The position numbers and the translations under genes are program-made. The notes below the pieces were generated by a model. It ran no database searches. It was not told the DNA's origin and saw nothing but the letters and a program-made list of their open reading frames with translations. 64,000 nucleotides of DNA from a virus, in IMG/VR virus record IMGVR_UViG_3300036402_000062, positions 1 to 64,000 of that record; one strand, 5' to 3'. Of this stretch, positions 1 through 14,255 are shown in pieces (position 1 is the stretch's first letter; every line of letters starts with the position of its first letter).

Positions 1-22
1 GAGTCCTGGGGGTAGGGTTGTG

Positions 23-88
23 CTAGCTATTGCCGTTCTCCTGTTGTACGTCACGACACGGGGCCACGCCAGTTTCGTGTGCAGTCAT
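23..88 (-). CDS. 21-residue mini-ORF made of the junction repeat
   Basis: A 21-codon frame begins at an ATG overlapping the stop of the upstream gene (ATGA) and ends TAG at 23-25. Its residues 7-18 (GVAPCRDVQQEN) are nearly the same as the C-terminal ends of the proteins ending at 3468 and 1398, because the DNA is a copy of the same junction repeat. It may be a decayed gene end or a translated linker rather than a functional protein. No function is assignable. Confidence 0.3.
   Translation of the reverse strand: MTAHETGVAPCRDVQQENGNS
43..63 (-). repeat. Junction repeat type 1, copy 1
   Basis: This 21-base block differs by one base from copies at 1415-1435 and 3488-3508. Read on the minus strand it encodes the end of a GV(A/T)PCRD(A/V)Q peptide and lies just before a Shine-Dalgarno stretch (CAGGAGAAC). 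Confidence 0.8.
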
Positions 89-303
89 CGTCCCCACTCC
101 TTCACGCTTAACTGCTGCGCCAGCAGCACGGTGCGGTCGATCATCAGTGCCACAGACTCGCCGCCGTCTGGGAAGTAGGCGCAACCCGTGCGCAGTTGAC
201 CTAGGGCCTTGCGAAGGGCCCGAAGATGCCTGCGCTTCTCGGAGCGGAAGGCGTGGGCGTTCGGGAAGGCGTGTGTCGGGTATTTGACGGAGGTCTTAGC
301 CAT
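85..303 (-). CDS. Small hypothetical basic protein
   Basis: 72 residues starting MAKTSVKYPTHAF. The ATG at 303 is chosen because AAGGA lies 8 bases upstream; an in-frame upstream extension has no such site. It overlaps the end of the gene at 296-478 by 8 bases, so it belongs to the tightly packed leftward early operon. The middle is Arg/Lys rich with a helical look (SEKRRHLRALRKALGQL). No family recognised. Confidence 0.6.
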   Translation of the reverse strand: MAKTSVKYPTHAFPNAHAFRSEKRRHLRALRKALGQLRTGCAYFPDGGESVALMIDRTVLLAQQLSVKEWGR

Positions 304-478
304 GGTCGTTTTCCTTGGGTTCGTGAGTGCCATGCACGCCAAGTGCGTCCGCTGCTTGCAGCATCCGCATCTGCTTCCGTGCATTCAGCCAGTCCGCAAT
401 CGCTCCGGCGCCGAGGCCGAAAGCGAACACGGCAGCAACGAAACCGACTGCGACGGCGATGGCTTGAATGCCGCTCAT
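296..478 (-). CDS. Small single-pass membrane protein
   Basis: 60 residues with one hydrophobic helix at about residues 5-28 (Ala/Val/Gly/Phe rich), then a short charged tail. The start codon overlaps the stop of the upstream 308-residue gene (ATGA). Topology suggests inner-membrane insertion; function unknown. The C-terminal half contains an ALGVHG stretch resembling the GV junction motif common in this operon. Confidence 0.65.
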   Translation of the reverse strand: MSGIQAIAVAVGFVAAVFAFGLGAGAIADWLNARKQMRMLQAADALGVHGTHEPKENDHG

Positions 479-1398
479 GGCTGGCCCCCATCAGACGTTT
501 CCACGCCAGCGGCGGCGAGCCAGATGTTGGAGCCAACCCCTTCGGCGCTGCGGCCATCGGGATACACCTTCACTGGCATTCCCGGCGGCTTGATGTAGAC
601 GACCTTCTCGCGCGGGTCCATGTGCGTCACGTCGAACGTCTTGCCGTGGTAGTGCAGGACGAACTTCGTGCCGTCTTTGAACGCCCGCCACAGTTCCAGC
701 GGCGTTGCGTAAGGCAGAGGCTGCGTCTCCGCCACGCCATCGGCGGCAGCACGGCACGCATCCCACCCGGCCATCCAATCGGCCTCTGACGGCGTGAGCG
801 TGCCAGCACACCAGCGTCGGTATGTCTCTGGCTGCTTCAGCCGCAGCCATTCATGTGACGACGGCACGTTCTCCAGCACCTCGGTGCGGCCGTCCTTGCG
901 GCCCTGTTCGTAATTGGTCCAGTCGGGCTTGAAAGCCTCCGGCACGCCACCGGGCTCCAGCGCTGTGCAATGCACGCAGCGGCTCACCTTGCCGCCCGCA
1001 CTATCCGGCTCCAGCCTGAACTGGTGCTGGCACGCGGCAGGTATTCCCACGCCAGCAATGCTGTTGAAGCTAGGCAGATTGAGGCAGTCAGGGGACTTGC
1101 AGCACTCGCCAGCGGGGCACTGCGGCAGGCCGCATGGGACCACCGGCACGCCACAGGGGAAGCGGTCCGCTAGTCCCTTCGCCAGGTCGGCCATGAAGGC
1201 GGTTGCAACGTCCCTCGCCGCCTTGACGCTTGCCATGTGGTCGTTGGTCGATTCCGCGACGGACTCGATGCATTCCAGCAGTTCCGCAGTCAGGTTGCAC
1301 AGCGCGCGGAGGTTGCCGAGGCGCCGCTCGTCAATGTGCGAATCCCCAACAGGCTCGACTGAGCCGTTTAGCTTCACCACTACGTCGAAGATGTCCAT
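475..1398 (-). CDS. Hypothetical multi-module protein with internal GV junction motifs
   Basis: 307 residues from ATG at 1398, which has AGGAGG 6 bases upstream; a GTG at 1401 is an alternative. No single family is recognised. The protein looks like several short modules in series: an N-terminal helical part, a Cys-rich part (CGLPQCPAGECCKSPDC), a part with CVHC, then a C-terminal part with a lysine/tyrosine-rich strand pattern. Boundaries between parts carry AGVGIP (about residue 115), ADGVAE (about 218), AEGVG (about 288) and a terminal AAAGVE. These match the ends of separate small proteins elsewhere in the operon, suggesting gene fusion. Confidence 0.6.
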   Translation of the reverse strand: MDIFDVVVKLNGSVEPVGDSHIDERRLGNLRALCNLTAELLECIESVAESTNDHMASVKAARDVATAFMADLAKGLADRFPCGVPVVPCGLPQCPAGECCKSPDCLNLPSFNSIAGVGIPAACQHQFRLEPDSAGGKVSRCVHCTALEPGGVPEAFKPDWTNYEQGRKDGRTEVLENVPSSHEWLRLKQPETYRRWCAGTLTPSEADWMAGWDACRAAADGVAETQPLPYATPLELWRAFKDGTKFVLHYHGKTFDVTHMDPREKVVYIKPPGMPVKVYPDGRSAEGVGSNIWLAAAGVETSDGGQP

Positions 1399-1760
1399 CA
1401 CGCACCTCCTTTCGGTTGTGCGTCACGACACGGGGTCACGCCAAGTGCGTCCGGCTGGGCGCGCAAGAAGAATCGCCACAGTGCTTCGACCTTCCTGTCG
1501 CGGTATTCAGAAGGAATCTCGATGGTGGGCGTCTCCCACCGCTTGCTCCAGAACGCGGGGTTGCCCCAGCCGGAAACACGCAGTTCGCTGAACGGCTCGC
1601 CACCCTGCATCAAGCTGCACAGCAACTGCTCGAAGCGTGGGCGCAGTACAGTCTCTTCGACGCGCCGCTTGTTGATGTGCGCAATGTCGTGATGGTGCGG
1701 CTCAGCCGCGCCGCAGACGGAGCACGCGAAGGTACCTTGAAGCTCGGTGTCGTCGTTCAC
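1398..1760 (-). CDS. Hypothetical protein with CxxC pair
   Basis: 120 residues from a GTG at 1760 that overlaps the preceding stop (GTGA) and has GAAGGGG about 6 bases upstream; the longer upstream frame is a shadow of the preceding gene. Contains CSVCG near residue 13 and an HHHD cluster, hinting at metal binding. The C-terminus (LGVTPCRDAQPKGGA) is the junction-repeat peptide. Its TGA overlaps the next ATG by one base. Confidence 0.6.
   Translation of the reverse strand: MNDDTELQGTFACSVCGAAEPHHHDIAHINKRRVEETVLRPRFEQLLCSLMQGGEPFSELRVSGWGNPAFWSKRWETPTIEIPSEYRDRKVEALWRFFLRAQPDALGVTPCRDAQPKGGA
1415..1435 (-). repeat. Junction repeat type 1, copy 2
   Basis: Identical over 21 bases to 3488-3508 and one mismatch from 43-63. 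Here it encodes the C-terminal PCRDAQ peptide of the upstream gene and sits directly before the AGGAGG that serves the gene starting at 1398. Confidence 0.8.
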
Positions 1761-2278
1761 GGTTGCCCCTTCAAAGGTATTCCCACGCCATCGGCGGCAT
1801 CGTCCAGCTTCTCCTGTAGTTCGATCACGGCTGTCTGCGACTCCCGCAGCATCGCGCCGACCTTGTGGCCCTGCAGCCTCCAAGCCTCCAGCACCACGGG
1901 GTCAACATCGGACAGCACCTCGGCACGGGTGGCGGCCCGCTGCGCTTCATCCGACGCCTTCACGCCAGCAGCAACAGCGAGGGTTTCGATGCCTTGCCAC
2001 AGCTTGTGTTCATCCTCGATGGCGAACAGGCGCATCGCCCTCCTGTCGGCCAGCGGGCTCATCGCTCCCTCGGCTGCGACGATGGCGTCGCGCAGCAGCT
2101 TGCGTATTTCTGGCAAGGTTGGAACGGCATGCCATGCCCAGCGGTCGGCCTTGACTTCGCGCTCCACGGTCTGCTGCATGTCGAGCTGTCGCACCCAATC
2201 GTCCGGCACTTCTATTGCTATGAAGACCTTCACGGCTGCCCCTTCAAAGGTATGCGACATGACGAATATGCGCTTCAC
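1757..2278 (-). CDS. Hypothetical helical protein
   Basis: Up to 173 residues. Start is ambiguous: GTG at 2278 overlaps the previous stop (GTGA) and follows GGAGG, while GTG at 2233 follows a TTTGAAGGGG sequence that is duplicated as the ribosome binding site of the next gene (1760). The body is mostly helical with many Ala, Glu and Arg. It carries internal VAAGVKASDE and terminal AADGVGIPLKGQP junction motifs. Confidence 0.55.
   Translation of the reverse strand: MKRIFVMSHTFEGAAVKVFIAIEVPDDWVRQLDMQQTVEREVKADRWAWHAVPTLPEIRKLLRDAIVAAEGAMSPLADRRAMRLFAIEDEHKLWQGIETLAVAAGVKASDEAQRAATRAEVLSDVDPVVLEAWRLQGHKVGAMLRESQTAVIELQEKLDDAADGVGIPLKGQP
1758..1778 (-). repeat. Junction repeat type 2, copy 1
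   Basis: On the minus strand this 21-base block reads ACCTTTGAAGGGGCAACCGT and then G, ending in the GTG start of the next gene. A copy with one change is at 2231-2251. Each supplies a ribosome binding site plus a GTG start. Confidence 0.75.
2231..2251 (-). repeat. Junction repeat type 2, copy 2
   Basis: One base different from 1758-1778. It lies inside the frame of the gene at 1757-2278 and could mark its original start (GTG at 2233). Confidence 0.75.
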
Positions 2279-2460
2279 CCCTTCACCTCCACATAAGCGC
2301 CATAGAACTCGTCTAGCGTGGGGCAGAGGTACTGCGCCATCGGTGCTCCGTCGTGCCGTTCAACGTAACGGGCGCAGGTTTCGCGCTTTGTGCAGGGGAT
2401 CTCTCCAGTAGGGCCGGGAAGTAGTCCTAGGCAGCGGGTGGAGTCGGCGACGAGAGTCAT
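2275..2460 (-). CDS. Small hypothetical protein
   Basis: 61 residues. The ATG overlaps the methyltransferase stop (ATGA), so translation is probably coupled. Two cysteines (CTKRETC) and no hydrophobic helix. No family recognised. Confidence 0.55.
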   Translation of the reverse strand: MTLVADSTRCLGLLPGPTGEIPCTKRETCARYVERHDGAPMAQYLCPTLDEFYGAYVEVKG

Positions 2461-3161
2461 GCCAATCCCATCTGCTCGGGCTGTCGCTGCGGCTCTGCGT
2501 CAAATAGCGGGCGCTGGTTGTACGCCTGCTCAATGCGGCGGCAGGCAATGTCGAAGTAGCTTTCCTCGCGCTCTATGCCGATGAACTGGCGGCGGCGTTC
2601 GGCGGCAGCCACCCCGGTTGTTCCTGAGCCCATGAACGGGTCGAGGATGCTGTCAGCCTTGGGGCACAGGTCAATCATCCAGCCCATAACCTGTAAAGGC
2701 TTCTGGGTAGGGTGGAAACGCTCCTCCATGCCCTCGCGAATCATCCCGTGCCAACGCCATTGAATGCGCCGGACGGCCATCGGCCAGTTAGTCCACACCA
2801 ACTCGCAATCCGCATAGGAGTTGTCGCCATTCAGCTTGTCCCAGACAAGCCAGCAACTGGATGGAGGAAAATTGAAGTAGTTCCCACCGAAGATTGCCGC
2901 CCAGCGCCCCTGCTTGACAACCATCTCCACCAGAACTGATGCTGGGCGCGCCCGATCCCAGTCCGAGGGAGCGTAGGATTTTCTTGCGACTCTGCGGCTG
3001 CCATGCCCGGACACGCGCCCAGAGTCAGCGCTCATGGAGTTCGCCACATCAATCCCATACGGCGGGTCCGTCACCACCGCATCCACCTTTGGCAGCGTCG
3101 GTAGGATCTCCATGCAATCCCCGAGATACAGCGTCGCGTCGCCAATGACTTCCTTACGCAT
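2457..3161 (-). CDS. DNA methyltransferase (N4/N6, DPPY type)
   Basis: 234 residues from ATG at 3161 (AAAGGTGG 6 bases upstream; an in-frame ATG further upstream reads through neighbouring genes). The catalytic DPPY is at about residues 32-35 and the S-adenosylmethionine motif DPFMGSGTT near 180, the order of beta-class amino-methyltransferases (ParB/RsrI-like). No endonuclease neighbours it, so it is a solitary phage methylase. It probably marks phage DNA against host restriction or alters regulation. A Lar-like protein lies 1 kb downstream in the transcript order, giving a paired anti-restriction theme. Target base and sequence cannot be read from the gene. Confidence 0.93.
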   Translation of the reverse strand: MRKEVIGDATLYLGDCMEILPTLPKVDAVVTDPPYGIDVANSMSADSGRVSGHGSRRVARKSYAPSDWDRARPASVLVEMVVKQGRWAAIFGGNYFNFPPSSCWLVWDKLNGDNSYADCELVWTNWPMAVRRIQWRWHGMIREGMEERFHPTQKPLQVMGWMIDLCPKADSILDPFMGSGTTGVAAAERRRQFIGIEREESYFDIACRRIEQAYNQRPLFDAEPQRQPEQMGLA

Positions 3162-3375
3162 CAGCGGCCACCTTTCGCCGTTCCTCGATTTCCTTGCGGA
3201 TTCGTCGGCCAAGTCCATCCAAGTGCCACGGCTCGCCCTTCTCGTAAAAATCCGCTGCGCTCATCGCGTACACCGTGTCTGCCTGGTCCAGAAGCTGCAG
3301 GCAGTACGCCAGCATTTCCTTGCGGCGTTCCTCGCGGGTAATACAGCCGCTCGCCGGTCGAGCCGTGGTGTCCAT
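3154..3375 (-). CDS. Small hypothetical helical protein
   Basis: 73 residues, natural-looking composition with long charged helices (RRIRKEIEERRK at the end) and no membrane segment. It ends 8 bases inside the methyltransferase gene. An alternative-frame ORF (3161-3475) overlaps it almost completely. The N-terminal part of that ORF and this protein may be two halves of one gene split by a +1 shift. Confidence 0.55.
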   Translation of the reverse strand: MDTTARPASGCITREERRKEMLAYCLQLLDQADTVYAMSAADFYEKGEPWHLDGLGRRIRKEIEERRKVAADA

Positions 3376-3475
3376 TGCGGTACGTCACCTTGGGGTTGCG
3401 CTGGACACTGGCCCGAAAGCGGCGATTGAACACCGCGTCCTCGAACGCCTTGCGGGTGTTGTCGTGGTCAGCCAC
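3161..3475 (-). CDS. Questionable ORF overlapping 3154-3375; possible frameshifted 5' half
   Basis: From GTG at 3475 (CAGGAGAACGACC before it, part of the type 1 junction repeat), about the first 45 residues (VADHDNTRKAFEDAVFNRRF onward) look like real protein. The remainder is Gly/Arg-rich and is the out-of-frame shadow of 3154-3375. Either the gene genuinely overlaps, or a one-base change has broken one longer gene. Its TGA overlaps the methyltransferase ATG. Confidence 0.4.
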   Translation of the reverse strand: MADHDNTRKAFEDAVFNRRFRASVQRNPKVTYRNGHHGSTGERLYYPRGTPQGNAGVLPAASGPGRHGVRDERSGFLREGRAVALGWTWPTNPQGNRGTAKGGR

Positions 3476-3809
3476 GGTCGTTCTCCTGTTGTGCGTCACG
3501 ACACGGGGCCACGTCATCGGGCAGCACGCCAGCGGCGGCCTGCCAGACGGCCACGAGGTCGTCGGCTTCCATGTGCATGGCGTGGCCTTCGATCAAGTCG
3601 TCCGCCACGCCGGGATTGCAGTTCGGCATCGCAGCCACAGCAGCCCGAATGATGGCCTCGCGCTGGAGAGCCGATGCACCCACAGCCACGCCAGCAGGCG
3701 CTTTTGCCGGAGGCCACTGATTGCGCTCCACGCCGCAGGCGCAGGCCGGCCAAGAGCACTTCCCCTTGGCATAGCCACGATCGCATTTCGTCGCCGGGTG
3801 TTCGCTCAT
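3468..3809 (-). CDS. Hypothetical Cys-rich protein with GV motifs
   Basis: 113 residues from the ATG at 3809 that overlaps the stop of a small upstream gene (ATGA). The N-terminal part has Cys at KCDRGY..KCSWPACACG, suggesting a metal-binding knot. After PAGVAVGAS comes a helical part, then QAAAGVLPDDVAPCRDAQ at the end. It thus looks like two modules, each bounded by a GV motif. Unknown function. Confidence 0.55.
   Translation of the reverse strand: MSEHPATKCDRGYAKGKCSWPACACGVERNQWPPAKAPAGVAVGASALQREAIIRAAVAAMPNCNPGVADDLIEGHAMHMEADDLVAVWQAAAGVLPDDVAPCRDAQQENDRG
3488..3508 (-). repeat. Junction repeat type 1, copy 3
   Basis: Identical to 1415-1435. It carries the end of the 3468-3809 gene and is followed on the minus strand by CAGGAGAACGACC and a GTG start. 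Confidence 0.8.
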
Positions 3810-3964
3810 TGCCCGCTGGGCGCGACGCTGCGCGTTGTAGGCCAGTGCGGCGAGCACCGGCAACTTACCGCGTGGCACAGGTCAATCATGGCTAACACCG
3901 CGCGCGCGGCCGCCGCGAACACCAGCAGCAGCGCGAACCAGAGGAGGCGCTTACATATCTGCAT
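3806..3964 (-). CDS. 52-residue secreted or membrane-anchored peptide
   Basis: ATG at 3964 follows GAGGGGCAGTG; the TGA overlaps the next gene's ATG. Residues 1-25 form a typical signal sequence: two basic residues, a Leu/Phe/Val core, then AAAARAVLA. The mature part is short with three cysteines and a Pro/Ser-rich tail. There is no clear lipobox, so it is not an obvious Rz1-type spanin. Being in the early operon, it could act at the envelope during takeover. Function unknown. Confidence 0.5.
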   Translation of the reverse strand: MQICKRLLWFALLLVFAAAARAVLAMIDLCHAVSCRCSPHWPTTRSVAPSGQ

Positions 3965-4397
3965 CACTGCCCCTCGCCTGCGTCAGCGTGTCGCGCGGTT
4001 TCGCTTCGCCATCAAGCACCCCCACGCCAGAAGTGGGCGATGTGTCTCTCGGGTCGCATAGCCCGGCGCAGGTATCCATCGCCTTGCACGCTTCCTTGTT
4101 CGGACAGGTGCCGGTAGCGGCTGGCACGTTACGGAACAGTGAGCTGCACGCTCCGCAGCCCATGTCCATACAGCGGGCGCAGCCGGGCGCTTCGGGCCCC
4201 TTCACGCCAGCAGCGGCGCGGGTGTTCCATTTGGCGAAGTCGCCCGCGCTCTCGAAGATGACGAACGGATCGCCCAGCCCTACAGCGGACAGAACGCAGT
4301 CGCTGGTCGGGTGCTGATACCAGCTGTCGCCCTCGCGGCGCGGCTCGTAGCGCACCAGTGATGTGCCGCAGAACGGGCACGGTTTCAGTTCAACCAT
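3951..4397 (-). CDS. Lar-like restriction-alleviation zinc-ribbon protein with C-terminal extension
   Basis: 148 residues from ATG at 4397 (GGAGG 6 bases upstream). Residues 3-60 show the Lar family pattern: LKPCPFCG near the start, a central strand region, and AKWNTRA at the end. Family members from prophages reduce host type I restriction; here that is inference from family. After the domain comes AAAGVKGPEAP and then a second Cys-rich segment (CARCMDMGCGACSS and two further pairs), which looks like an added module. The 3' end overlaps the small secreted gene. Confidence 0.65.
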   Translation of the reverse strand: MVELKPCPFCGTSLVRYEPRREGDSWYQHPTSDCVLSAVGLGDPFVIFESAGDFAKWNTRAAAGVKGPEAPGCARCMDMGCGACSSLFRNVPAATGTCPNKEACKAMDTCAGLCDPRDTSPTSGVGVLDGEAKPRDTLTQARGSDADM

Positions 4398-4731
4398 GCT
4401 GGCCTCCATCAATCGGTGCCACGCCACGGGGCACCCACGATTCGTATTCGGCATGGCCCATCGCAATCAGGACTGCCGGCGGCTGGTCGGGCACACTCGT
4501 CACGTAGGACCGTCGGTTCTGCGGCAGCGCCGCATTGAAGCAGGACGGGCACACTTGGTACGGTGGCAACCAGTCCGCGCAGGTCTTCACCTCTCCGCAA
4601 CAGGAGCACCAGCCGCGCGCCCTGCCGTACTGTCTGAAGTTGGCGTTCAGCGCGACGGTGGCAAAAGCGTCGCGCTTGCCCATGACCTCGCGCATACGCT
4701 CAATCGTGATGCGGGGGAAGTCACTTTCCAT
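4390..4731 (-). CDS. Zinc-ribbon hypothetical protein
   Basis: 113 residues from ATG at 4731 with GGAG 6 bases before it. Two pairs, CSCC and CPSC, 20 residues apart form a plausible zinc ribbon. The end (YESWVPRGVAPIDGGQHG) closely resembles the end of the 4989-5414 protein, and the gene boundary repeats the one at 4721-4745. Confidence 0.6.
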   Translation of the reverse strand: MESDFPRITIERMREVMGKRDAFATVALNANFRQYGRARGWCSCCGEVKTCADWLPPYQVCPSCFNAALPQNRRSYVTSVPDQPPAVLIAMGHAEYESWVPRGVAPIDGGQHG

Positions 4732-4996
4732 GCTGTGCTCCATCAGGTAATGCCACGCCAGCAGCGGCATCGTCCAGCGCGTAGGGCCACACCGGGTCTT
4801 TCACTTCGCGGGCGGTCAGTTCGACGGCGTTGCGCACCGCCTTCGTCATTGCCTCGCGTGCGCAGCGGTCGAAGTCGTCTTCGTTCTTGCCCTGCGCGTG
4901 GAAGTAGCGGTAAGCCTGCGTGATGGCCGGCAGGCAGGTCATGGTCGCGTGGAAGATCGCGTCGGCCTCGATCTTGGGGATGTTCGGCTCAGCCAC
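4721..4996 (-). CDS. Hypothetical protein
   Basis: 91 residues from GTG at 4996, chosen because AGGAGG lies 6 bases upstream; a TTG at 5002 is less likely. Helical, acidic, with two Cys. The end DAAAGVALPDGAQHGK is the GV junction peptide. Overlaps the upstream gene by 8 bases (GTGGCTGA), the same overlap as at 3468-3475. Confidence 0.55.
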   Translation of the reverse strand: MAEPNIPKIEADAIFHATMTCLPAITQAYRYFHAQGKNEDDFDRCAREAMTKAVRNAVELTAREVKDPVWPYALDDAAAGVALPDGAQHGK

Positions 4997-5414
4997 GGTC
5001 AACCTCCTTCACGCCACGGGGAACCCACGACAGGTACTCCGCGTCGCCAGCAGCGCCGGAGCCGCGCTTGTAGAGGCACCGCTCCGGGTAGCCGGTGTTG
5101 CAGGGTTCGCAGATCGCATAGCCGGGGCTGATGCGCCGCGCCTCCAAGCAGTTCAGGTGGCTGGTGTCGGCATCCACCATCACGCCACGGGTGGCCGGCT
5201 GCGCTTCGTTAATCGGCTCGGAAGCCGCGCCAGTGCTGGGTTTAGGGGTGGCCGGCTGCACGCTAGGAATGGAGGCCAGCGTGGCGATGGCCGCATCGAG
5301 ATTGACGAGCGCTGTGCCGTTCTCCTCCTCGGCTTTGATGCCCATTGCGATAAGCCTGTTGCGAACAAGGCCCAGCGCCAGCAGCGCCCAACTAATTGTC
5401 GGAACTGCGTTCAT
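4989..5414 (-). CDS. Hypothetical protein with Cys-rich C-terminal module
   Basis: 141 residues from ATG at 5414, overlapping the stop of the upstream gene (ATGA). N-terminal hydrophobic helix (ISWALLALGLVRNRL), middle Pro/Thr linker, ATRGVMVDAD junction, then a module with CLEARRISPGYAICEPC and a final SWVPRGVKEVDRG. The Cys module could bind metal. No known family. Confidence 0.55.
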   Translation of the reverse strand: MNAVPTISWALLALGLVRNRLIAMGIKAEEENGTALVNLDAAIATLASIPSVQPATPKPSTGAASEPINEAQPATRGVMVDADTSHLNCLEARRISPGYAICEPCNTGYPERCLYKRGSGAAGDAEYLSWVPRGVKEVDRG

Positions 5415-6016
5415 GCGGCCGCCTTTGCTGCCGGGACGGGTACGCTCTCGCGCAGCGCCTTGATCCACTGGTTGCGGCCCTCGGTGCGCGCGACCTCTTC
5501 GGCGTGCATGCGCTCGTACGTGGCGAGCATCCGCCGGTGCTGTTCGAACTGCCTTGCGATCCAGACCGCCGGATCCAGCCGCTCGGGCTGCGGCCCGACA
5601 CCGCAATCGAACCGCATGCTCTCGTTCAGCTGCTGCAGCATGAAGTCGCGCAGGCCAACGTGTTCGGCCGTCGGCGGCGTCCAGGCTTCCGCTTGCGCGA
5701 GCATCGCTGCGTACTTCTCGCGCAGTGTGTCCGCAGCAGCGAGCCGCTTTCGCCAGCTCGCCAGGGCCACTTCGTGGGCGGCGGCCGCGGCGATGGCGAC
5801 CTCTTCGGCCGTCATGCCATCCAGCAGCGTGATCTGCGCGCGGGCTTCGTCAGCCGACTTCTGATAGCTGCCGCTCGGCTCGAAGCGCTCGGGAATGGCG
5901 GCGCCGGACGGCGCGTCGCGCAGCAGCACGAGAGCGCCGAATGCGCGGGCGCAGTTCCAGACGAACTGATCGAAGCTGATGCCGTCAGCGATGTCGGCGG
6001 TGTATCCGGTGGGCAT
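5411..6016 (-). CDS. Conserved phage hypothetical protein (MPTGYTADIADG type)
   Basis: 201 residues. ATG at 6016 has AAGGA 7 bases upstream. The N-terminus (MPTGYTADIADGISFDQFVW) is a pattern I recognise from early regions of proteobacterial phages, where it lies next to recombination genes. The rest is long amphipathic helix, probably coiled coil at about 75-130. Function unknown. It follows the exonuclease gene by 10 bases. Confidence 0.7.
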   Translation of the reverse strand: MPTGYTADIADGISFDQFVWNCARAFGALVLLRDAPSGAAIPERFEPSGSYQKSADEARAQITLLDGMTAEEVAIAAAAAHEVALASWRKRLAAADTLREKYAAMLAQAEAWTPPTAEHVGLRDFMLQQLNESMRFDCGVGPQPERLDPAVWIARQFEQHRRMLATYERMHAEEVARTEGRNQWIKALRESVPVPAAKAAA

Positions 6017-6026
6017 GGTGTGTCCT

Positions 6027-8033
6027 TCAGGCGGCTTTCGCCAACTGGTCCCGAACCTTCGTCAGGTGCTGGATGGCGGCGGTGAGGATCAGGGGCAGGT
6101 CCGCCTGGTGATACAGCTTCGCGGCGCCTTCACGGCCAGCCGGCGGAAAGCCGAGCGCCTCCAGGCCTGCGGCGTCGATCTGGAAGGGATGGAGGTGGTC
6201 GCGAATGTCGCCGAGCTTCAGCGTCGGCGGGCCGGAGGGCGCGGCCGGCGCGCGGGTGGGCATGGGGATGACGGCAGGGCCGGCAACCGCCGCGAGCACG
6301 GGCGTTTGCGGCTGGTGCGGCTGGACGGCGCGCGCTTCGGCATCCGAGACAGTCTGCTGCTGGCGCTCCTGCTCCGCGCGCGCCGCGGCTTGCTCGCGCT
6401 CCACCGCGTCCGCGTGTGCGATCTCCAGCTGCTCCAACCGGGTGACGCGTGCCTGCGCAGCTTCGGCGACACGGTCGTCCAGCAGGGCCTCGGTCAGCGT
6501 GCAGGACTGCAGCGTGCGGATGGCTCTGGCGATGTTCTCGCTGTCGGTCACCCCGGCGCCGGCCGTCTTGATCCCGTCGATGCGGGCCTGCACTTGGGCC
6601 CGCCGCTCCTGCTGCTGGCGCGCGCGCTCCTCTTCTTCCTGCCGGATGCGCGCGCGCTCCGCATCGAGCCGGCGTTCCTCCGCCGCCCGGTGCTCCCCGA
6701 TCCTGCTGGTGATCACCGCCAAGCAGTCGTCCGGCGCCTTCAGCACCACGATGGCCGTGTCGGCGAACAGGAAGGCATGCTCGCTGGCCAGCTCGCGCAG
6801 CGCCTTCAGGTTCGCGTCGACCCGGTCGGCTATTTCGTTCGCGACGATCTTCGCGCGTGCCAGCTCGGTCGCCACGCGGTCTTCCATGCTGGCCAGCGAC
6901 TTCATGCCCTTGATGCAGCCGCCGAAGTCGGCCTGGACGGTGGGCATGTAGGCTTTGCCCAGCCGCTTGTTCAGGGCAGCGATGTGGTCGGCCAGCGCCT
7001 TCACCCCGCCGGCCACGATCTCGCCGCGGCGGCGCTCCTTCTCGGACGCCATCAGCTTTTCGGACAGCAGCCGGTTGTCGCGCACCAGCGCCTTCAACAT
7101 GTCCTTGCGGCGCTTCTTCTGGCTGACGGTTTCGATCTGCGCGATCCAGCTGTCCTCGGCGTTGTCGAGCGCGGCCTCAGCACCCTTCATCGCCTTGATC
7201 TGCATCTCGAGGTCAGCGAACTGCTGATCGGTTCGCGGTTCGCGGATCAGCCGGTGTTCCAAGAAGTCGCGCATCGCGACCTCGAAGGCGTCGAAGTTCT
7301 CGTGGATGACGATGCTGCCTTCGACCTTGACGGACACGGAAGGCAGGGCCTGCACGGGCTCGGCAACGATCTTCTCGACGGCGGACGCGGCGGGCGGGAC
7401 GTAGGCGGCCAGGTCGGTGGCGAACTGCTTCCAGCCGGCCAGGATCTCCGCCCGCAGCGCCCGGTCGCTGTTGTAGAAGGCGTGCCGCTCCTCGGTCACG
7501 TTGCCGTCGGCATCGAACTGGCACGCCGAGAACAGCGTCCGCGTCGCGCCGGTCACCATCTGCTGCTGCTCCAGCTGCGTGCGGTAACCCTTGGGCAGCT
7601 GCCGTGCGTCATTTCGTGCATGGCTGTCGCGGCCGGTGTGGGGCAGGGCGGCGCGCAGTGCTTCGTTGGCGGACTTGCATTCGCCGAGCGTGTCCTCCAT
7701 GAACGTGACCGCGTCGAGGGACGCGCCCAGCGGCCGGGACAGGCCGACGTCCAGCGATCCGGACAGCACCTGCAGGTCCTCGCCCAGGATCTGCTCCGCG
7801 ATCGGGCGCCAGAGCGCCTCAATCCGGTGTCCGGGGTTGATCACCTTCTCCTGCACGTAGTCGCTGAACTCGCGCTCGATGCCGGTGTGCAGCTCCTCCA
7901 GCAGCTGGGTGCGGGTCTTCCCGCTCGGGTGGCACCCGAGCATGGCGGAGGCGTCGCCTGCGTTGAAGCAGCGCGCGCGGCGGGCGTGCCAAGCTGCGCT
8001 TCCCGGCTCGTCGGTGTAGCGGGTCATCGCCAT
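6027..8033 (-). CDS. YqaJ-like recombination exonuclease with long C-terminal helical extension
   Basis: 668 residues. The N-terminal roughly 220 residues fit the YqaJ/lambda-exonuclease nuclease fold: WHARRARCFNAGDASAML near the start, later LGASLDAVTF and LGECKSA with the acidic and lysine catalytic positions, and QLEQQQMVTGA. The remaining part is unlike lambda exonuclease: charged helices, an EEEERARQQQERRAQ coil near 500, and an Ala/Pro linker before the last 60 residues. It should digest one DNA strand to feed the annealing protein encoded 3 bases upstream. The length is about three times that of lambda exo, so the extension has an unexplained role. Confidence 0.85.
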   Translation of the reverse strand: MAMTRYTDEPGSAAWHARRARCFNAGDASAMLGCHPSGKTRTQLLEELHTGIEREFSDYVQEKVINPGHRIEALWRPIAEQILGEDLQVLSGSLDVGLSRPLGASLDAVTFMEDTLGECKSANEALRAALPHTGRDSHARNDARQLPKGYRTQLEQQQMVTGATRTLFSACQFDADGNVTEERHAFYNSDRALRAEILAGWKQFATDLAAYVPPAASAVEKIVAEPVQALPSVSVKVEGSIVIHENFDAFEVAMRDFLEHRLIREPRTDQQFADLEMQIKAMKGAEAALDNAEDSWIAQIETVSQKKRRKDMLKALVRDNRLLSEKLMASEKERRRGEIVAGGVKALADHIAALNKRLGKAYMPTVQADFGGCIKGMKSLASMEDRVATELARAKIVANEIADRVDANLKALRELASEHAFLFADTAIVVLKAPDDCLAVITSRIGEHRAAEERRLDAERARIRQEEEERARQQQERRAQVQARIDGIKTAGAGVTDSENIARAIRTLQSCTLTEALLDDRVAEAAQARVTRLEQLEIAHADAVEREQAAARAEQERQQQTVSDAEARAVQPHQPQTPVLAAVAGPAVIPMPTRAPAAPSGPPTLKLGDIRDHLHPFQIDAAGLEALGFPPAGREGAAKLYHQADLPLILTAAIQHLTKVRDQLAKAA

Positions 8034-8036
8034 GGC

Positions 8037-9215
8037 TCAAGCCCCCTTCGTGAGTTCGGCGCGGCGGGCTTCGGCCTTGCCGAACAGCTCGTTGCGCTGC
8101 TCGCCATCCAGGATGGCGGGGATGAGCGTCTCGGCTTCATCGAGCTGCTCGGTGGTGGCCGCCTTGGCGATGCGATCCGCCACCTGGGCATAGGTCACCT
8201 GCGGCGCGCCCTGGTCCTTCGGCTGCACGTCGGTGACTTGCTGGCCGGCGGCTGCCTGGGCATCGGCCCCCGGCTTCTTCAACGCCCGGATCTTGGTTTC
8301 CTGGTCGGCGGTCAGGTGCCGCTTGGACTTCACGAAAGCGACGATGTCGTCGTGCGACTTGCCGGCAACCAGGTAGCCCTGGTAGATCGGCAGCCGCTTC
8401 TCGAAGTCGGCGTCGCTGTCGGCCGGTTGCTGCGCGCCGGTCTTGGTGTCGCCCGAGGCTGCGGCCGCCGCCGGGCCGGCGGGCTGCACAACATCGGCCG
8501 GCCCCATGTGCCGCTCCATCGGCGGGCCTCCCTCCAGCTCCTCCGGGGTGTAGACGCCGAGGATGGCGCCGGGGGAATTCAGCCGGCCCCACTTGCGCAC
8601 TGCAAGGTAGCAAAGCTGCTGAAAGGGGTCCGTGGCCCATTGCGTCGAAAAGCGGGGGTACGCCTGCGACATCATCACGCGCAGCTCGCGCGGGGAAGAC
8701 TCGCCGCTCAGCGTGGCGCGGACGATGACGCCCAGGCCTTCTTCGTCCTTTTTCGTGTAGGTGGCAGCGAACCACTTGCCGCCTTCGGTGCCGTCCGGCC
8801 GTGCCTTGCCCTGCCGCTCTTCCACCTTGCCCAACACCTTGGACCAGTCGCCGATGGCCTCGTACTCGGGTTCGCGCTTGATCGCGCCGGTGCTCACCAG
8901 GATGGCGCTCACCAGCTGTGCCTCATAGCCGAGGGCTCCGCTCTGCGACATGTGCGTCTTCTGCGCAACCGCGAAGGGGTTCATGCGCCAGCCCAGCGCC
9001 TGGATCGTGATGGCCATGCAGTCGCCCATGTTCCCGCGCAGGTGCTTCGGCACGGACACGGAGCCGGTCGACATCAGCTTTGCGAATGACTGCACGCGGT
9101 CGAAGGCCGGGCCGAGGATCAGCGCGGCTGCGTCATTGACCTGTCCGACCTCGTACGACTGGGGTTCGTGGATGGCGAGAGCGCCGCTCTCGGCTCGCTG
9201 GGTGGGTGCGTTCAT
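8037..9215 (-). CDS. RecT-family single-strand DNA annealing protein
   Basis: 392 residues from ATG at 9215 (AAAGAG 4 bases before). The core (about 25-230) has the RecT pattern: LILGPAFDRVQSFAKLM, then GNMGDCMAITIQALGWRMNP, VSAILVSTGAI and VMMSQAYPRFSTQWATDP. The C-terminal 150 residues are an Ala/Pro linker and small helical domain. It binds ssDNA and anneals homologous strands, working with the exonuclease encoded just downstream in early phage recombination or replication. Confidence 0.9.
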   Translation of the reverse strand: MNAPTQRAESGALAIHEPQSYEVGQVNDAAALILGPAFDRVQSFAKLMSTGSVSVPKHLRGNMGDCMAITIQALGWRMNPFAVAQKTHMSQSGALGYEAQLVSAILVSTGAIKREPEYEAIGDWSKVLGKVEERQGKARPDGTEGGKWFAATYTKKDEEGLGVIVRATLSGESSPRELRVMMSQAYPRFSTQWATDPFQQLCYLAVRKWGRLNSPGAILGVYTPEELEGGPPMERHMGPADVVQPAGPAAAAASGDTKTGAQQPADSDADFEKRLPIYQGYLVAGKSHDDIVAFVKSKRHLTADQETKIRALKKPGADAQAAAGQQVTDVQPKDQGAPQVTYAQVADRIAKAATTEQLDEAETLIPAILDGEQRNELFGKAEARRAELTKGA

Positions 9216-9223
9216 GTTCTCTT

Positions 9224-9478
9224 TCAGGTGAGGAAGTGCCGTGCGAGAGCCACGGCGAAGAAAATCAGGCCGGGCACGGCAAGGCATGCGCCGACCAGGA
9301 CAGGGCGGCTGATGGAGGGAAGGCGAGGCCTGGGCGGTTCGAGCTCCGGGTCCGGCACCTCGCAGGCCTGCGCGCTGATGCAGCGCCCATTGCTGCAGAA
9401 CGAGCACAGGGAGCTGGTGACGCCGTGGCTCACCTTCTCGCCGCCAGGACAGAAGCGGACGGCGAAAACGTCAAGCAC
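9224..9478 (-). CDS. Small membrane protein with Cys cluster
   Basis: 84 residues. N-terminal cytosolic part with CSFCSNGRC, a Pro-rich stretch, and a C-terminal hydrophobic helix at about 60-80 followed by RHFLT. Likely tail-anchored with a metal-binding head. It lies 8 bases upstream of recT. Confidence 0.6.
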   Translation of the reverse strand: MLDVFAVRFCPGGEKVSHGVTSSLCSFCSNGRCISAQACEVPDPELEPPRPRLPSISRPVLVGACLAVPGLIFFAVALARHFLT

Positions 9479-9680
9479 GGCAGCGCTCCTGAACTTCCGC
9501 GATTTCGGCCAGCACGGTCGGCATGCCCGGGTGCTGCGGATGCATGCATTCGTGCAACCACCTCAACCAAACCAGCAGCAGCGGCGCGGGCAGGAAGCCG
9601 GTGAGCATCAGGATGGACACGGCGAAGCGCTGGCACCAGGTGCCGAAGCGGCGGACGCGCGTGATGAACGGGCGGCGCAT
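9471..9680 (-). CDS. Small basic membrane-associated protein
   Basis: 69 residues from ATG at 9680 (TGATG overlap with the preceding gene). A hydrophobic stretch at about residues 20-40 (SILMLTGFLPAPLLLVWL) follows several Arg. Unknown function. Confidence 0.5.
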   Translation of the reverse strand: MRRPFITRVRRFGTWCQRFAVSILMLTGFLPAPLLLVWLRWLHECMHPQHPGMPTVLAEIAEVQERCRA

Positions 9681-9868
9681 CACAGCGGCCAACTCACATC
9701 GACGCCACTACCCTGCAGGATCATCCCCAGCACGATCAGCACCAGGATGGCGGTGAGAGCGCGGCCGACGGGAGACTCCAGCGCGTCAACGGTTGCGCGG
9801 CGGCAGGCTTCGCAGTTACGGCCTTGGTTGTTGCCAACATCTATGCGGGTCATGTGGCGGGACTTCAT
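9680..9868 (-). CDS. Small membrane protein
   Basis: 62 residues with CEACRR near residue 20 and a hydrophobic helix at about 36-54 (LTAILVLIVLGMILQG). ATGA coupling with the upstream gene. Three consecutive small membrane genes (9868-9224) sit together before recT. Confidence 0.6.
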   Translation of the reverse strand: MKSRHMTRIDVGNNQGRNCEACRRATVDALESPVGRALTAILVLIVLGMILQGSGVDVSWPL

Positions 9869-10266
9869 GCGTTACTCCCGGTGGCGCGGGCGATTGCGGC
9901 GCGAACCTCGTCGACGAACAGTTGCGCATCGAATCCATCGCGGCTCTCAAGGCTGTAGCTGCCATGACCAAGGCGGTCGATAGCGTCGTTCAGTTGGACA
10001 AGGAGGGCGAGCAACTCCGGCGCGGAAGCGATCAGGCGAGCGTTGGCTTCGCACTGAGCTAACGTGTCTCCGAAAACGAGTGCGGGGGCCGTTTTGTCGG
10101 ACGCGGCAATTTCGATGCATGGGTCGTCCTTGCTGACCAGATCGGCACGCAAGGCGAACTTGCAGCACATTGCCGCAGCAGCAGCGGGCCCGGTCACGGC
10201 GAGCGTCGATCCTTTACCGAGGAACCACGCTTCCCACGGCCCCCGTGCGTGTTCTGCTTTGCTCAT
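9865..10266 (-). CDS. Conserved phage hypothetical protein (ANARLIASAPELL type)
   Basis: 133 residues. The EANARLIASAPELLALL stretch near residues 73-90 is a recurrent signature of small phage early proteins. Before it is a compact alpha/beta part. Start overlaps a 13-codon micro-ORF (ATGA). Confidence 0.65.
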   Translation of the reverse strand: MSKAEHARGPWEAWFLGKGSTLAVTGPAAAAAMCCKFALRADLVSKDDPCIEIAASDKTAPALVFGDTLAQCEANARLIASAPELLALLVQLNDAIDRLGHGSYSLESRDGFDAQLFVDEVRAAIARATGSNA

Positions 10267-10304
10267 TCCGCGTTCTCCAGCCAGTCGGTGGATTCGATGT
10301 TCAC
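10263..10304 (-). CDS. 13-codon micro-ORF between two coupled genes
   Basis: GTG at 10304 follows AAGGAGACGCAATC, overlaps the upstream stop (GTGA), and its own TGA overlaps the next ATG. The frame encodes VNIESTDWLENAE. It may simply keep ribosomes moving between the flanking genes. Confidence 0.3.
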   Translation of the reverse strand: MNIESTDWLENAE

Positions 10305-10804
10305 GATTGCGTCTCCTTGAGTGCAGCGCGGGCGGCGATTACAACTGCGTCATCCCAGCACCCGAGGTAAATGAGCAACTTCTCCGCAGCTTCCAGCGCC
10401 TCTCTGAGCTTGCGGACAGTCTCCTGCGTCTCCTGAACGCCACGGGCGGGTGCTGGCACGCCGGGAATGTTTACGTTGCGAGTGACGGTCAGTAACTTGC
10501 GCTGCTCGTCGGTCAGGCAAATCTCCTGCACGCGACAATGCGGCTCCGCGTCCTTCGTGGTGACGGTTACTCCGTCTTCCGCTGTTGCATAGCGGCCGAG
10601 GTAGGGTGAGCCGTCAAAAGTCTCCTGCGTCTCCTGATGGGAGGAGGCAGAGGCTTGCCAACCCGTCCAGATGTCCTCTACGTGCTGAAGCTCGTAGGTG
10701 TGGAGCGAGTCGCTATCGGCAGGAACGGTTATGTAGTTCTTGCGCTTTGCCCACGCTTCAAACTCGCGGCGCATCGCGGCCTGTTGTGCGGTGTCTTGGG
10801 TCAT
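10301..10804 (-). CDS. Hypothetical helical protein
   Basis: 167 residues from ATG at 10804 (ATGA overlap). The N-terminal half (MRREFEAWAKRKNY) and the C-terminal VRKLREALEAAEKL helix resemble small early phage proteins. HQETQETFDGS and VQETQETVRK are an internal repeat, the second following PARG as a junction-like motif. Confidence 0.6.
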   Translation of the reverse strand: MTQDTAQQAAMRREFEAWAKRKNYITVPADSDSLHTYELQHVEDIWTGWQASASSHQETQETFDGSPYLGRYATAEDGVTVTTKDAEPHCRVQEICLTDEQRKLLTVTRNVNIPGVPAPARGVQETQETVRKLREALEAAEKLLIYLGCWDDAVVIAARAALKETQS

Positions 10805-11115
10805 GACTGCTCCTGAGCGCTGGTGAGCACGGCATCGCACGCAAGGCAGGTGTAGTGCCCGGGCGGCACGACGACCTCGCAGAAGTCGCACAGGATGTGG
10901 CCCTTGTTCTCGGCACGCGCGAGGGCGCTAGCGGCCCTGTAGAGGCTTTGGGGCGTCACCTTGCCGACCGGGAAGGGTGTGCGCCCCCACAGGACATGCT
11001 CGCACCAGTCATCGGCAGCGCCCGGCTTTGCTGCGCGGCAAATGTCCTGCGCCGTCATTCGTGCTGGCGCACTCCCCCCAACATCGCAGCCATCGCCAGG
11101 AATAGGGGCGGTCAT
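10801..11115 (-). CDS. Zinc-ribbon hypothetical protein
   Basis: 104 residues from ATG at 11115 (AAGGA 7 bases before). The C-terminal CDFC and CLAC pairs, 13 residues apart, form a probable zinc ribbon; the rest is helical. Belongs to the coupled small-gene series. Confidence 0.6.
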   Translation of the reverse strand: MTAPIPGDGCDVGGSAPARMTAQDICRAAKPGAADDWCEHVLWGRTPFPVGKVTPQSLYRAASALARAENKGHILCDFCEVVVPPGHYTCLACDAVLTSAQEQS

Positions 11116-11417
11116 GGAGATTCCTTCGTGACAGCGGGAGCGATGGAGAGAAGCGCCTGCGTGACGGCTGCGTGGATGCCGTAGTGCGCGCCAAAGTGCT
11201 TGTTCATCTTCTCGTGCGCCTCGTGCTCGACGCGGCCGAACTTGCCCTTCGCCACCTTGTGCTCCCAGCCAAGGCACGCGTCATGCCATCCGGCCATGCG
11301 GATGCCGATGCAGTACTCGTTGTCTGCGTATGCGCGCAGAGCGGCGGCAAACTGCTCAAGCTGTTCAGCCACTCGCTTCTCGCAGCCATCGCCGGGCTTG
11401 TGTGTGGAATCGGTCAT
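11112..11417 (-). CDS. Hypothetical protein
   Basis: 101 residues from ATG at 11417, overlapping the upstream stop. Helical, His-rich toward the end (HEAHEKMNKHFGAHYGIH). The pattern CIGIRMAGWHDACLGWEHK is distinctive, but I cannot name a family. Confidence 0.55.
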   Translation of the reverse strand: MTDSTHKPGDGCEKRVAEQLEQFAAALRAYADNEYCIGIRMAGWHDACLGWEHKVAKGKFGRVEHEAHEKMNKHFGAHYGIHAAVTQALLSIAPAVTKESP

Positions 11418-11875
11418 AGCGGGGCGCTCTTGATCTGTTGCGCAACCCATGCGCGCACCTTTTGCCATCGCCTCTCGCGGTCGGCACGCTCAGCCTCTTC
11501 GCCGCGTGTGTTGCCAAGCGCCCAGCGCCCGTAGAAGTGCCCGCTGTTGTCGTTCACATCCATGATTTCGGCGGCAAGTGCCTCGGCGATGCCGAAGGTC
11601 TTGGCTAAGGTCTTGGCTACCTCTTCGCGCTCAGCGTCGACAAGATGTGCAACCGGCATCCCACGCGCCGCACCAACCACGCCGAGGGCGCAGAACTGGC
11701 CGTCCGACTGGAACTCTTCGGCCACCAGTTCTTTGACAGGCATGGCGTCCATCGCTGTCGCCAGTTCGCGCAGCAAGTCCTGCCCACGCTTACCGCGAAT
11801 CGCGGACTTCACGGCACCACGCCACCGGATCAAGTCCCAGTCGTCGCAGTCCTCGGAGTAACCGCTGCGGCTCAT
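11414..11875 (-). CDS. Conserved phage hypothetical protein
   Basis: 153 residues from ATG at 11875 (ATGA with the upstream gene). Reads MSRSGYSEDCDDWDLIRWRG, then KSAIRGKRGQDLLRELATAMDAMP, a pattern seen in many tailed-phage early regions (function not known to me). Mostly helical, soluble. Confidence 0.7.
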   Translation of the reverse strand: MSRSGYSEDCDDWDLIRWRGAVKSAIRGKRGQDLLRELATAMDAMPVKELVAEEFQSDGQFCALGVVGAARGMPVAHLVDAEREEVAKTLAKTFGIAEALAAEIMDVNDNSGHFYGRWALGNTRGEEAERADRERRWQKVRAWVAQQIKSAPL

Positions 11876-12093
11876 AGCGCACCCTTGCAGCGCATCGCAT
11901 CGACGTCGACCAGCTGCAAAGCAGCGGCGCGGGCATCGTTGCGGGCGTGCGCCTTCGCGGGCTTGTCGACGTTCGCATCGATGTCGGCCGCAATCCATGC
12001 GTGCTCGTCGATCTCGGCTGCGAGTGCCTCTCCGATGACGATCACCGGCCGCTCGTGGTTCACCCGCTGGGTGGGCATGCGGTGGATGGTCAT
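11872..12093 (-). CDS. Small hypothetical protein (ARNDA-tail type)
   Basis: 73 residues from ATG at 12093 (ATGA overlap). The C-terminal ARNDARAAALQLVDVDAMR resembles the C-terminus of the 12826-13107 product (ARNDAQAVATQVMDLDAMR). The two genes therefore share a module although their N-termini differ. Confidence 0.55.
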   Translation of the reverse strand: MTIHRMPTQRVNHERPVIVIGEALAAEIDEHAWIAADIDANVDKPAKAHARNDARAAALQLVDVDAMRCKGAL

Positions 12094-12195
12094 GCGCTCG
12101 CTCCGGTGGCCTTGGCGATGGCGCTCTCCGCCTTTTCTTGTGCCCGGTCCCAGCCGACGCCGTACAAGTCGCCGTGATAGCTGCGCGGCGTTCAT
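12090..12195 (-). pseudogene. Short gene apparently split by a frameshift
   Basis: An ATG at 12195 overlaps the upstream stop and begins MNAAQ, exactly as the gene starting at 12826 does. In that frame the sequence soon becomes Arg-rich and nonsensical. In the next frame, 12090-12185 reads YHGDLYGVGWDRAQEKAESA and ends TGA overlapping the next ATG. The simplest reading is a one-base shift near 12180-12190; a start at TTG 12167 is the alternative. Confidence 0.4.
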
Positions 12196-12527
12196 GCAGC
12201 ACCGCCGATCTGCCACACGGGCGCCGTGACGAATCCGCTGCGCGCCGGGGGCAGGTCATCGCGCACCTTGAACAGCCCACTCTTCAGCGCCTCCGCCGCG
12301 AGCACCTTGTTCTCCGACCACTCCTTCGCGTAGAAGCAATCGGCAGGCAGGTCGCTGGAATCGTGCGTGCACTCCGGCCTGTACATGTTCACGCTGAGCG
12401 TTGCGAGCGGCTTGCCGCCGTTCGATTGCAGGACGACAGCTGTCGGACCTTTCGGGCCGTCATACGTGGCGCGCAACACCGTGACGATGCCCCAGCGGGC
12501 GGAGTTGAAGGTGCCGATCTGCTTCAT
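12192..12527 (-). CDS. Hypothetical protein
   Basis: 111 residues from ATG at 12527 (ATGA). Begins MKQIGTFNSARWGIVTVLRA with a beta-strand-rich N-terminal half; contains two Cys. No family recognised. Confidence 0.6.
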   Translation of the reverse strand: MKQIGTFNSARWGIVTVLRATYDGPKGPTAVVLQSNGGKPLATLSVNMYRPECTHDSSDLPADCFYAKEWSENKVLAAEALKSGLFKVRDDLPPARSGFVTAPVWQIGGAA

Positions 12528-12826
12528 GCCGCACCCCCAGCCTTGGCGATGACGGAGTGCGCACGGCGCACGTCGCCCATCGTCAGCGTCTTGCCCGCAG
12601 GCGTTCTCGCGATGACCCACGAATCCTCGCGGCCGTGGGGACCGAAGCCGGATGCCCACTGCGCGAAGGGTTCCAGCGCTTCCACCAGTTCCTGCACCGT
12701 AGCCATTGCCTCGCGCAGGTCGTGGCTGTGCCCGTAGTGCATGAGGCCCTGCAGGTGGTCGTCGGTCGCGGCCAGGACCTTCATCACGGGCTTGGCGATC
12801 TCGCCAGGGGCCTGCGCGGCGTTCAT
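12524..12826 (-). CDS. Hypothetical helical protein
   Basis: 100 residues from ATG at 12826 (TGATG with the upstream gene), beginning MNAAQ. The long helix SHDLREAMATVQELVEALEPFAQW is typical of phage early proteins. A GTG at 12835 is an alternative start. Confidence 0.6.
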   Translation of the reverse strand: MNAAQAPGEIAKPVMKVLAATDDHLQGLMHYGHSHDLREAMATVQELVEALEPFAQWASGFGPHGREDSWVIARTPAGKTLTMGDVRRAHSVIAKAGGAA

Positions 12827-13107
12827 CACAGCCACCGAGCCCGGCGCATCGCGTCCAGGTCCATGACCTGCGTCGCGACTGCCTGCGCATCGTTGCGCGC
12901 GGCGAGCTTCGGCCCTTTGTTCTCGTCGCGCGCCAGGTCAGCGGCCGTCCAGTCGTCTTCGGACAGCTCCATCGGCTGGGTCACCGGCCCGCGGTCGATC
13001 AGGTCCAGCTCGTCGTTCTGCGCCGCCAGGTGATTGCCGCTGGCGATGCGGCCGAGGATGCCCTCCCGCTTGATCTGCCTCGCCTCGCGCTGCTGCGTGT
13101 GTGCCAT
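12826..13107 (-). CDS. First gene of the leftward early operon; small hypothetical protein
   Basis: 93 residues. ATG at 13107 is preceded by GGAGG 6 bases upstream, and its mRNA would begin about 30 bases earlier at the strong promoter. Highly charged N-terminus (QQREARQIKREG), then a helical body with the ARNDAQA..DLDAMR C-terminal module shared with 11872-12093. In lambda this position holds N; nothing here identifies it as an antiterminator, though the basic N-terminus makes that worth testing. Confidence 0.6.
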   Translation of the reverse strand: MAHTQQREARQIKREGILGRIASGNHLAAQNDELDLIDRGPVTQPMELSEDDWTAADLARDENKGPKLAARNDAQAVATQVMDLDAMRRARWL

Positions 13108-13143
13108 CTGTCCCTCCAGTGCCCGTATCTCGGGTGTGGCGGA

Positions 13144-13194
13144 ATTCTAGCCTCACGCTAGACTATGTCAAGCTTAAAGCTAGACTACGGCTAG
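13144..13194 (-). promoter_or_regulatory. Leftward early promoter with phased CTAG operators
   Basis: On the minus strand TTGACA (13171-13166), a 16-base spacer and TAGAAT (13149-13144) form a near-consensus sigma-70 promoter reading into the early operon. CTAG-like half-sites begin at 13147, 13158, 13169 (CAAG), 13180 and 13191, exactly 11 bp apart. They form overlapping CTAG-N7-CTAG palindromes over the -10, spacer, -35 and upstream. They are probably bound by the repressor encoded at 14538-15239 and/or Cro. Confidence 0.8.
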
Positions 13195-13215
13195 AATCGG
13201 ACGAACGGCAGACGC

Positions 13216-14246: not shown

Positions 14247-14255
14247 GTTGCGGAC

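Follow-up and report, generated by a model that had tools for sequence, protein, structure and literature searches.

A short in-frame sequence word recurs at gene and domain junctions of a temperate-phage accessory operon

The IMG/VR virus record IMGVR_UViG_3300036402_000062 is 64,560 bases long, and we analysed its bases 1-64000 (64,000 nucleotides (nt), hereafter the window). Bases 1-174 are repeated at 64387-64560 with one mismatch, which indicates a circular genome of about 64.4 kb. The phage is temperate, and between its recT/exonuclease genes and its integrase it carries an accessory operon of 18 genes on the minus strand, running from 5414 down past position 1, over the record end, to 63398. 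The subject of this report is the word TGGCGTG (the core), of which 21 exact copies lie on the minus strand of this operon. The in-frame reading of the core is nnT-GGC-GTG (xGV). The core usually stands 7-16 codons ahead of a stop and is followed by a Shine-Dalgarno (SD) sequence and then the start of the next gene. An initial annotation of this DNA had described four separate types of recurring gene junction. All four were found where it had placed them, on the minus strand; they are not separate, being 3' variants of the single core, and the description had caught about a third of the 21 copies. The sites are as follows, all on the minus strand.

About 33-71, 1415-1443 and 3479-3516: Type 1 blocks, 29-38 nt, 93-95% identical
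1756-1780 and 2229-2253: Type 2 blocks, 25 nt, 96% identical; the second lacks the core, and its tail (IPLKGQP, stop) has no open gene in that frame
About 4729-4747 (CTGATGGAGCACAGCATGG) and about 4395-4413 (TTGATGGAGGCCAGCATGG): Type 3
About 5003-5015 and 63681-63693: Type 4 (GGCGTGAAGGAGG)
65..71: terminal core, Type 1 (GVAPCRDVQQENGNS, stop), ending a 21-codon open reading frame (ORF), 87..23
335..341: terminal core, end of gene 478..296 (LGVHGTHEPKENDHG, stop)
502..508: terminal core, end of gene 1401..475 (AGVETSDGGQP, stop); its tail matches phage G810 (37 nt, 84%)
733..739: core in internal linker DGVAETQ, gene 1401..475
943..949: core in internal linker GGVPEAF, gene 1401..475
1048..1054: core in internal linker AGVGIPA, gene 1401..475
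1147..1153: core in internal linker CGVPVV, gene 1401..475
1437..1443: terminal core, Type 1, end of gene 1760..1398 (LGVTPCRDAQPKGGA, stop)
1784..1790: terminal core, end of gene 2278..1757 (DGVGIPLKGQP, stop)
1961..1967: core in internal linker AGVKAS, gene 2278..1757
3525..3531: terminal core, end of gene 3809..3468 (AGVLPDDVAPCRDAQQENDRG, stop), followed by the third Type 1 block
3687..3693: core in internal linker AGVAVGA, gene 3809..3468
4023..4029: core near the end of gene 4397..3951 (SGVGVLDGEA)
4203..4209: internal core directly after a Lar-like zinc module (WNTRAAAGVKGP), gene 4397..3951
4420..4426: terminal core, Type 3, end of gene 4731..4390 (RGVAPIDGGQHG, stop)
4754..4760: terminal core, Type 3, end of gene 5002..4721 (AGVALPDGAQHGK, stop)
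5010..5016: terminal core, Type 4, end of gene 5414..4989 (RGVKEVDRG, stop); SD AAGGAGG
5181..5187: core in internal linker RGVMVD, gene 5414..4989
63464..63470: core near the end of gene 63676..63398 (HGVPVDCHHTFPPAPTDGAGGKTE, stop)
63688..63694: terminal core, Type 4, end of gene 54..63673 (DGVKEGS, stop); SD AAGGAGG
63802..63808: core variant TGGCGTA in internal linker AGVAVGA, gene 54..63673
63943..63949: core in internal linker DGVAVGA, gene 54..63673

As the list shows, the terminal copies agree with the earlier placement of the repeats at gene junctions, while the four internal copies in 475-1401 show that they are not confined to gene ends. Type 2 does supply GAAGGGG and a GTG start: block 1756-1780 provides these to the next gene. 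The coreless copy at 2229-2253 follows no open gene, and it is likely the scar of a lost cassette tail that now provides the gene that ends at 1757 with its SD and GTG start. The 21-codon ORF 87..23 holds little beyond a start and the tail, and is likely an empty cassette or scar. It had also been proposed that each cassette brings its own translation start; we found instead that the junction, which is mostly the last codons of the upstream gene, carries the ribosome site and start of the next one. TGGCGTA at 3311-3305 was considered as a further site and dropped, being out of frame with the likely gene there. The sole mismatch between the 174-bp end-repeat copies (A/G; window 48, record 64434) falls inside a Type 1 junction, where the record-end copy agrees with the junction copies at 1415 and 3488; gene conversion, variation in the population or assembly mixing among junction copies could explain it.

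In the 16 array genes tested, every one of the 20 core copies was in phase nnT GGC GTG. When codons were shuffled within genes (2000 shuffles), the mean was 1.4 copies and the maximum 6, and by this test TGGCGTG was the most enriched of all 7-mers in these genes. Gly-Val pairs were coded nnT-GGC-GTG in 20 of 26 cases in array genes, compared to 6 of 106 in the other genes of the phage. When all loci examined were scanned without bias for 7-mers at gene ends, TGGCGTG in this phase ranked first, in the array loci.

We then asked which other phages carry such junctions, as the initial annotation had suggested, by scanning IMG/VR with junction patterns and not with genes. Seven further phage contigs (G804-G810) contained arrays of the same kind, giving eight phages with that of the window; most of the pattern matches were chance. 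The junctions fall into tail classes, distributed as follows.

KEGG/KEGS: window, G805, G809
KGP/KGL: G805, G808
LPDG: window, G805, G808, G809; close forms in G806, G807, G810
GIP: window, G804, G805
GTH/GTS: window, G804, G809

Over the eight phages we counted 75-77 sites, the number varying with the array limits chosen. Fifty of the 77 are terminal and 27 are internal (more than 30 codons from the stop), the latter joining domains of a single protein (1401..475 and 54..63673 are examples). Among the seven contigs added, the core occurs at 3.4 per kb inside the arrays and 0.12 per kb outside. A junction spans about 30-45 nt and consists of C-R-C-Y-n-n-TGGCGTG, a short tail, the SD sequence and a start codon that overlaps the stop of the preceding gene; in translation the junction yields the C-terminal end of the upstream protein, A, T or P followed by x-G-V and the tail. 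The pattern thus reaches upstream of the core as C-R-C-Y, and downstream a T at +15 is common.

The modules between the junctions are not alike. An initial protein comparison, all against all, was overwhelmed by GC-rich reads that were out of frame, and was redone on in-frame modules only. Cut at the linkers, the proteins gave 92 such modules, of which only about three pairs were convincingly homologous. The DNA of the junctions, by comparison, matches between phages in the following blocks.

G805/G808: 42 nt, 90%
G804/G805: 28 nt, 93%
G805/G807: 45 nt, 82%
G810/window: 37 nt, 84%

The other between-phage DNA match was a 32-nt LVPVEPT module, found in the G804 array and in a gene outside the G808 array. 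When terminal sites were aligned, similarity was much higher downstream than upstream of the core. The same short DNA therefore borders non-homologous modules across phages, as described for phage boundary or linker sequences. This agrees with the original proposal that the junction and not the gene is conserved, with the same blocks in eight phage genomes and unrelated genes on either side. Of the two findings named in advance as counter-evidence, constant flanking pairs and duplication of whole genes, neither held: flanking pairs differ, and whole-gene duplication does not explain the copies.

Signs of exchange were also observed. G808 and G810 have in common an exonuclease at the left (78% DNA identity) and an HNH gene at the right (76% over 104 nt), and between those flanks their gene sets differ, with not one array gene in common. 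Two G805 genes that follow each other both contain a 32-residue module (GEVVVTKD...DEDGRILSVIAE), which stands right before a linker in the first and right after a linker in the second; the module is also present, with no linker, in Stenotrophomonas phage QH1 and Pseudomonas phage Ab31. The LVPVEPT module forms a gene of its own in G805, but in G804 it is an internal domain bounded by linkers. The initial idea of a cassette system of swappable genes also needs an amendment as to the unit, which is a module and not always a gene, since the linker also joins domains inside proteins.

The array has the following neighbours in the window. The RecT name derives from resemblance to annotated phage RecT/recombination genes.

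8037-9218, minus strand: RecT-like annealing protein, upstream
6027-8033, minus strand: RecE-like exonuclease, upstream
5411-6016: PHROG 8905 conserved protein, upstream of the operon
61734-63401, minus strand: HerA-like ATPase (from sequence motifs only), downstream
Within 60338..63401, minus strand: small probable excisionase, downstream, listed between the HerA-like ATPase and the tyrosine integrase
60338-61504, minus strand: tyrosine integrase, downstream

Where flanks were available, genes resembling exonucleases or annealing proteins precede the array and integrase-like genes follow it in most records, as read from their sequences; G804 and G806 are exceptions or incomplete in this respect. 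The C-terminal part of the HerA-like ATPase has two copies of a repeat, GYTVNGHFNN.CG.L, with 73% DNA identity. Elsewhere in the window, low-complexity GGCTTGGCGCGGCTGGCTAGGC-like repeats lie between two genes at about 49400-49620, a tRNA-Gly gene (anticodon TCC) is situated mid-genome at 30235-30309, and an early gene at 10301-10891 contains an internal QETQET repeat and GV-containing segments without the TGGCGTG word.

Searches with genes or single words did not find the arrays. Joined into one tblastn query, the array proteins had no match in 50,697 phage records, and single array proteins had no relatives in IMG/VR. A 15-base Type 1 word was found in IMG/VR in unrelated contexts only, and the AGVAVGA word gave only chance matches. 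No array was seen in the RecT and terminase relatives examined, which indicates that the array does not follow those genes. The same was true of named phages with a common module or integrase (QH1, phiAH14a, Ab31, IFTN8 and IFTN2) and of the relatives or controls Bcep176, PHB09, HK75 and HK629. One RecT-related phage (locus L022, 12346-15067) has a reverse-transcriptase-like gene adjoining short genes with a common end, FALAPSAD, and is possibly a diversity-generating retroelement. Burkholderia phage Bcep176 has a terminase with 68% identity to that of the window. In the search for a host, array DNA against 369 genomes of the class, the junction pattern against 399 genomes of the order, and the integrase against 369 genomes of the class each gave nothing beyond chance.

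We think it probable that the repeats represent one boundary (linker) sequence, read in frame, at which small interchangeable modules are joined together. The modules concerned lie in the temperate-phage accessory region, which has the recombination genes on one side and the integrase on the other. With the same word in the same phase at every junction, crossing over or strand annealing between two junctions would bring any pair of modules together in a translatable frame; a tail keeping its stop would yield neighbouring genes, and a tail without it a fused protein. Modules may be exchanged by recombination at the junction words, probably through the adjoining annealing protein and exonuclease, and this use may explain the retention of the word. 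The 7-base core would be a less plausible substrate than a whole junction, 28-45 nt long, of one tail class. Where homology is short, Red-beta, RecT and Erf outperform RecA in recombining sequences (PMC3945230).

Several points weigh against this proposal. The invariant core is just 7 bp, below the homology that annealing recombinases usually need, and whole junctions (28-45 nt) are similar only inside a tail class. Pairs of close relatives with a crossover at a junction were looked for and none was found; as no breakpoint is located, recombination at the junctions is only what we infer. Selection for translation of the downstream gene may keep part of each junction. Moreover, the logo of the sites is conditioned on the core, the pattern-based discovery biases the counts of the two tail classes used in the search (neither the remaining classes nor further copies in those contigs are affected), and G804-G810 are metagenomic contigs with simple ORF calls.

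The main rival explanation is a translation signal, in which the word and its tail promote termination-reinitiation or ribosome loading in a packed operon and are kept or copied for expression, not for recombination. The spacing fits such a role. Sites no more than 16 codons from a stop have a plausible next start in all cases but one, at distances from the core that are quantised, mostly 20-21 or 29-30 nt; the tail holds the SD sequence just before the start, and stop and start overlap. Furthermore, the start-associated sequences of Cluster K mycobacteriophages, which are common to different gene families, were tied to translation initiation by their discoverers. However, the 27 internal copies have no start nearby, the SD varies both in sequence and in distance from the core, and a translation signal does not require one reading frame. 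When pairing with ribosomal RNA during reinitiation was considered, neither the 16S nor the 23S rRNA of E. coli contained a perfect complement of the core. We consider this explanation unlikely.

A stronger form of the boundary-sequence proposal is doubtful. Here the junction word would be the true recombination site of a dedicated gene- and domain-joining system, worked by the annealing protein and exonuclease or by another phage factor, and a pool of small early modules would be added, lost and fused across unrelated phages with frame and translation kept.

Protein binding to DNA at gene ends, whether at a stoperator-like repressor site, at a Chi-like recombination signal or at the site of a phage-specific recombinase, would account for an asymmetric word that is clustered and has a single orientation relative to transcription. 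A partial dyad, CRCY-nn-TGGCG, can also be drawn; its pairing is imperfect, with 4 of 4 stem pairs in 25 of the 77 sites. Binding does not need a common reading frame, in which all 20 copies in the window genes tested lie, and there is no enrichment outside the array; GCNGCTGGCGTG was not above its control in the two Burkholderiales genomes examined. We regard such a site as improbable.

About as improbable is a peptide tag, in which A or T, x, G and V with the tail form a common C-terminal handle of small early proteins for a partner, stability or degradation. The word is always in frame and mostly near C termini, and 60 of the 77 sites have A, T or P two residues ahead of G. On the other hand, eleven different amino acids (A, R, D, S, L, C, H, G, P, T, V) are found just before GV, yet the third base of that codon is always T, and the GV pairs are nearly always GGC and GTG. 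A variable residue with a fixed third base points to a constraint on DNA and frame jointly. The tails after GV also differ, and a third of the copies are internal. Growth of the array by tandem gene duplication, with only the ends still alike, is very unlikely: some neighbours are alike beyond the junction (AEYxSWVPRGV is common to the genes that end at 4390 and 4989) and G805 has its duplicated module, but nearly all modules are dissimilar while 28-45 nt junctions keep 82-95% identity both inside a phage and from phage to phage, the flanks upstream have no comparable excess of similarity, and junction blocks are common to phages without homologous modules.

The modular theory of phage evolution posited conserved linkers, which were rarely found, and illegitimate recombination became the favoured explanation. 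The arrays offer a dense, testable case, in which one word in one phase, in at least eight phage genomes, joins unrelated small genes and protein domains. Searching for junctions instead of genes gives a handle for finding uncharacterised accessory genes, and the junctions offer a way to measure module exchange in nature. They also suggest how phages may build new multi-domain early proteins without breaking the frame.

Finally, we compared the arrays with known systems. The likeness to integron gene cassettes, small genes in an array with a repeated element at each end, is loose. No conserved folding element or integron integrase was seen here: near the array there is only the phage tyrosine integrase, the junctions have no conserved stem, and the genes are co-oriented, overlapping and translationally joined. 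Stoperator-type sites are dispersed through the genome, whereas the core is concentrated in the array. The exo-xis region of lambda-like phages, with its mosaic Ea22 proteins (PMC10834534), occupies the same place, from the recombination genes to xis/int, and likewise contains small early genes, mostly uncharacterised, and modular proteins; in contrast, HK629 and HK75 have no array of the TGGCGTG word there. In these two E. coli phages (HK75, locus L235, 4949-5431; HK629, locus L236, 12218-12673) one gene family has the same SD-bearing tail, CGCAAAGGAGGCAACCAGTGA (RKGGNQ, stop), ahead of different next genes, and this KGGNQ tail is a possible lambdoid counterpart of the junction.

The start-associated sequences (SAS) and their extended forms (ESAS) in Cluster K (PMC3203893) are also short asymmetric repeats, mostly in one orientation, beside start codons of different gene families. 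The SAS is a 13-bp sequence, GGGATAGGAGCCC, immediately before the start codon (PMC3203893). Our junctions resemble it in serving different families and in their tie to translation starts, but have no GGGATAGGAGCCC-like 13-bp sequence right at the starts: the word is different, lies 20-45 nt upstream of the start and inside the preceding gene, has a variable SD, and is also found internally. No counterpart of the ESAS inverted repeats was seen here.

The closest comparison is with boundary sequences, which were proposed for lambdoid phages and, as cited in PMC3029335, are not identifiable at most mosaic boundaries. In mycobacteriophage Island3, the adjoining genes gp67 and gp68 have the same last 18 residues, called the first such mycobacteriophage example (PMC3029335). 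Both cases resemble ours in having short conserved DNA at gene borders with unrelated genes beside it, proposed as a guide for homologous recombination. They differ in that here a single operon contains one word 21 times; the word is found in eight phages, keeps to one phase, and also serves as an intragenic domain linker. In the open-licence literature searched we found no description of the TGGCGTG word or of an in-frame junction array, and this coding, module-joining form of boundary sequence appears to be new.

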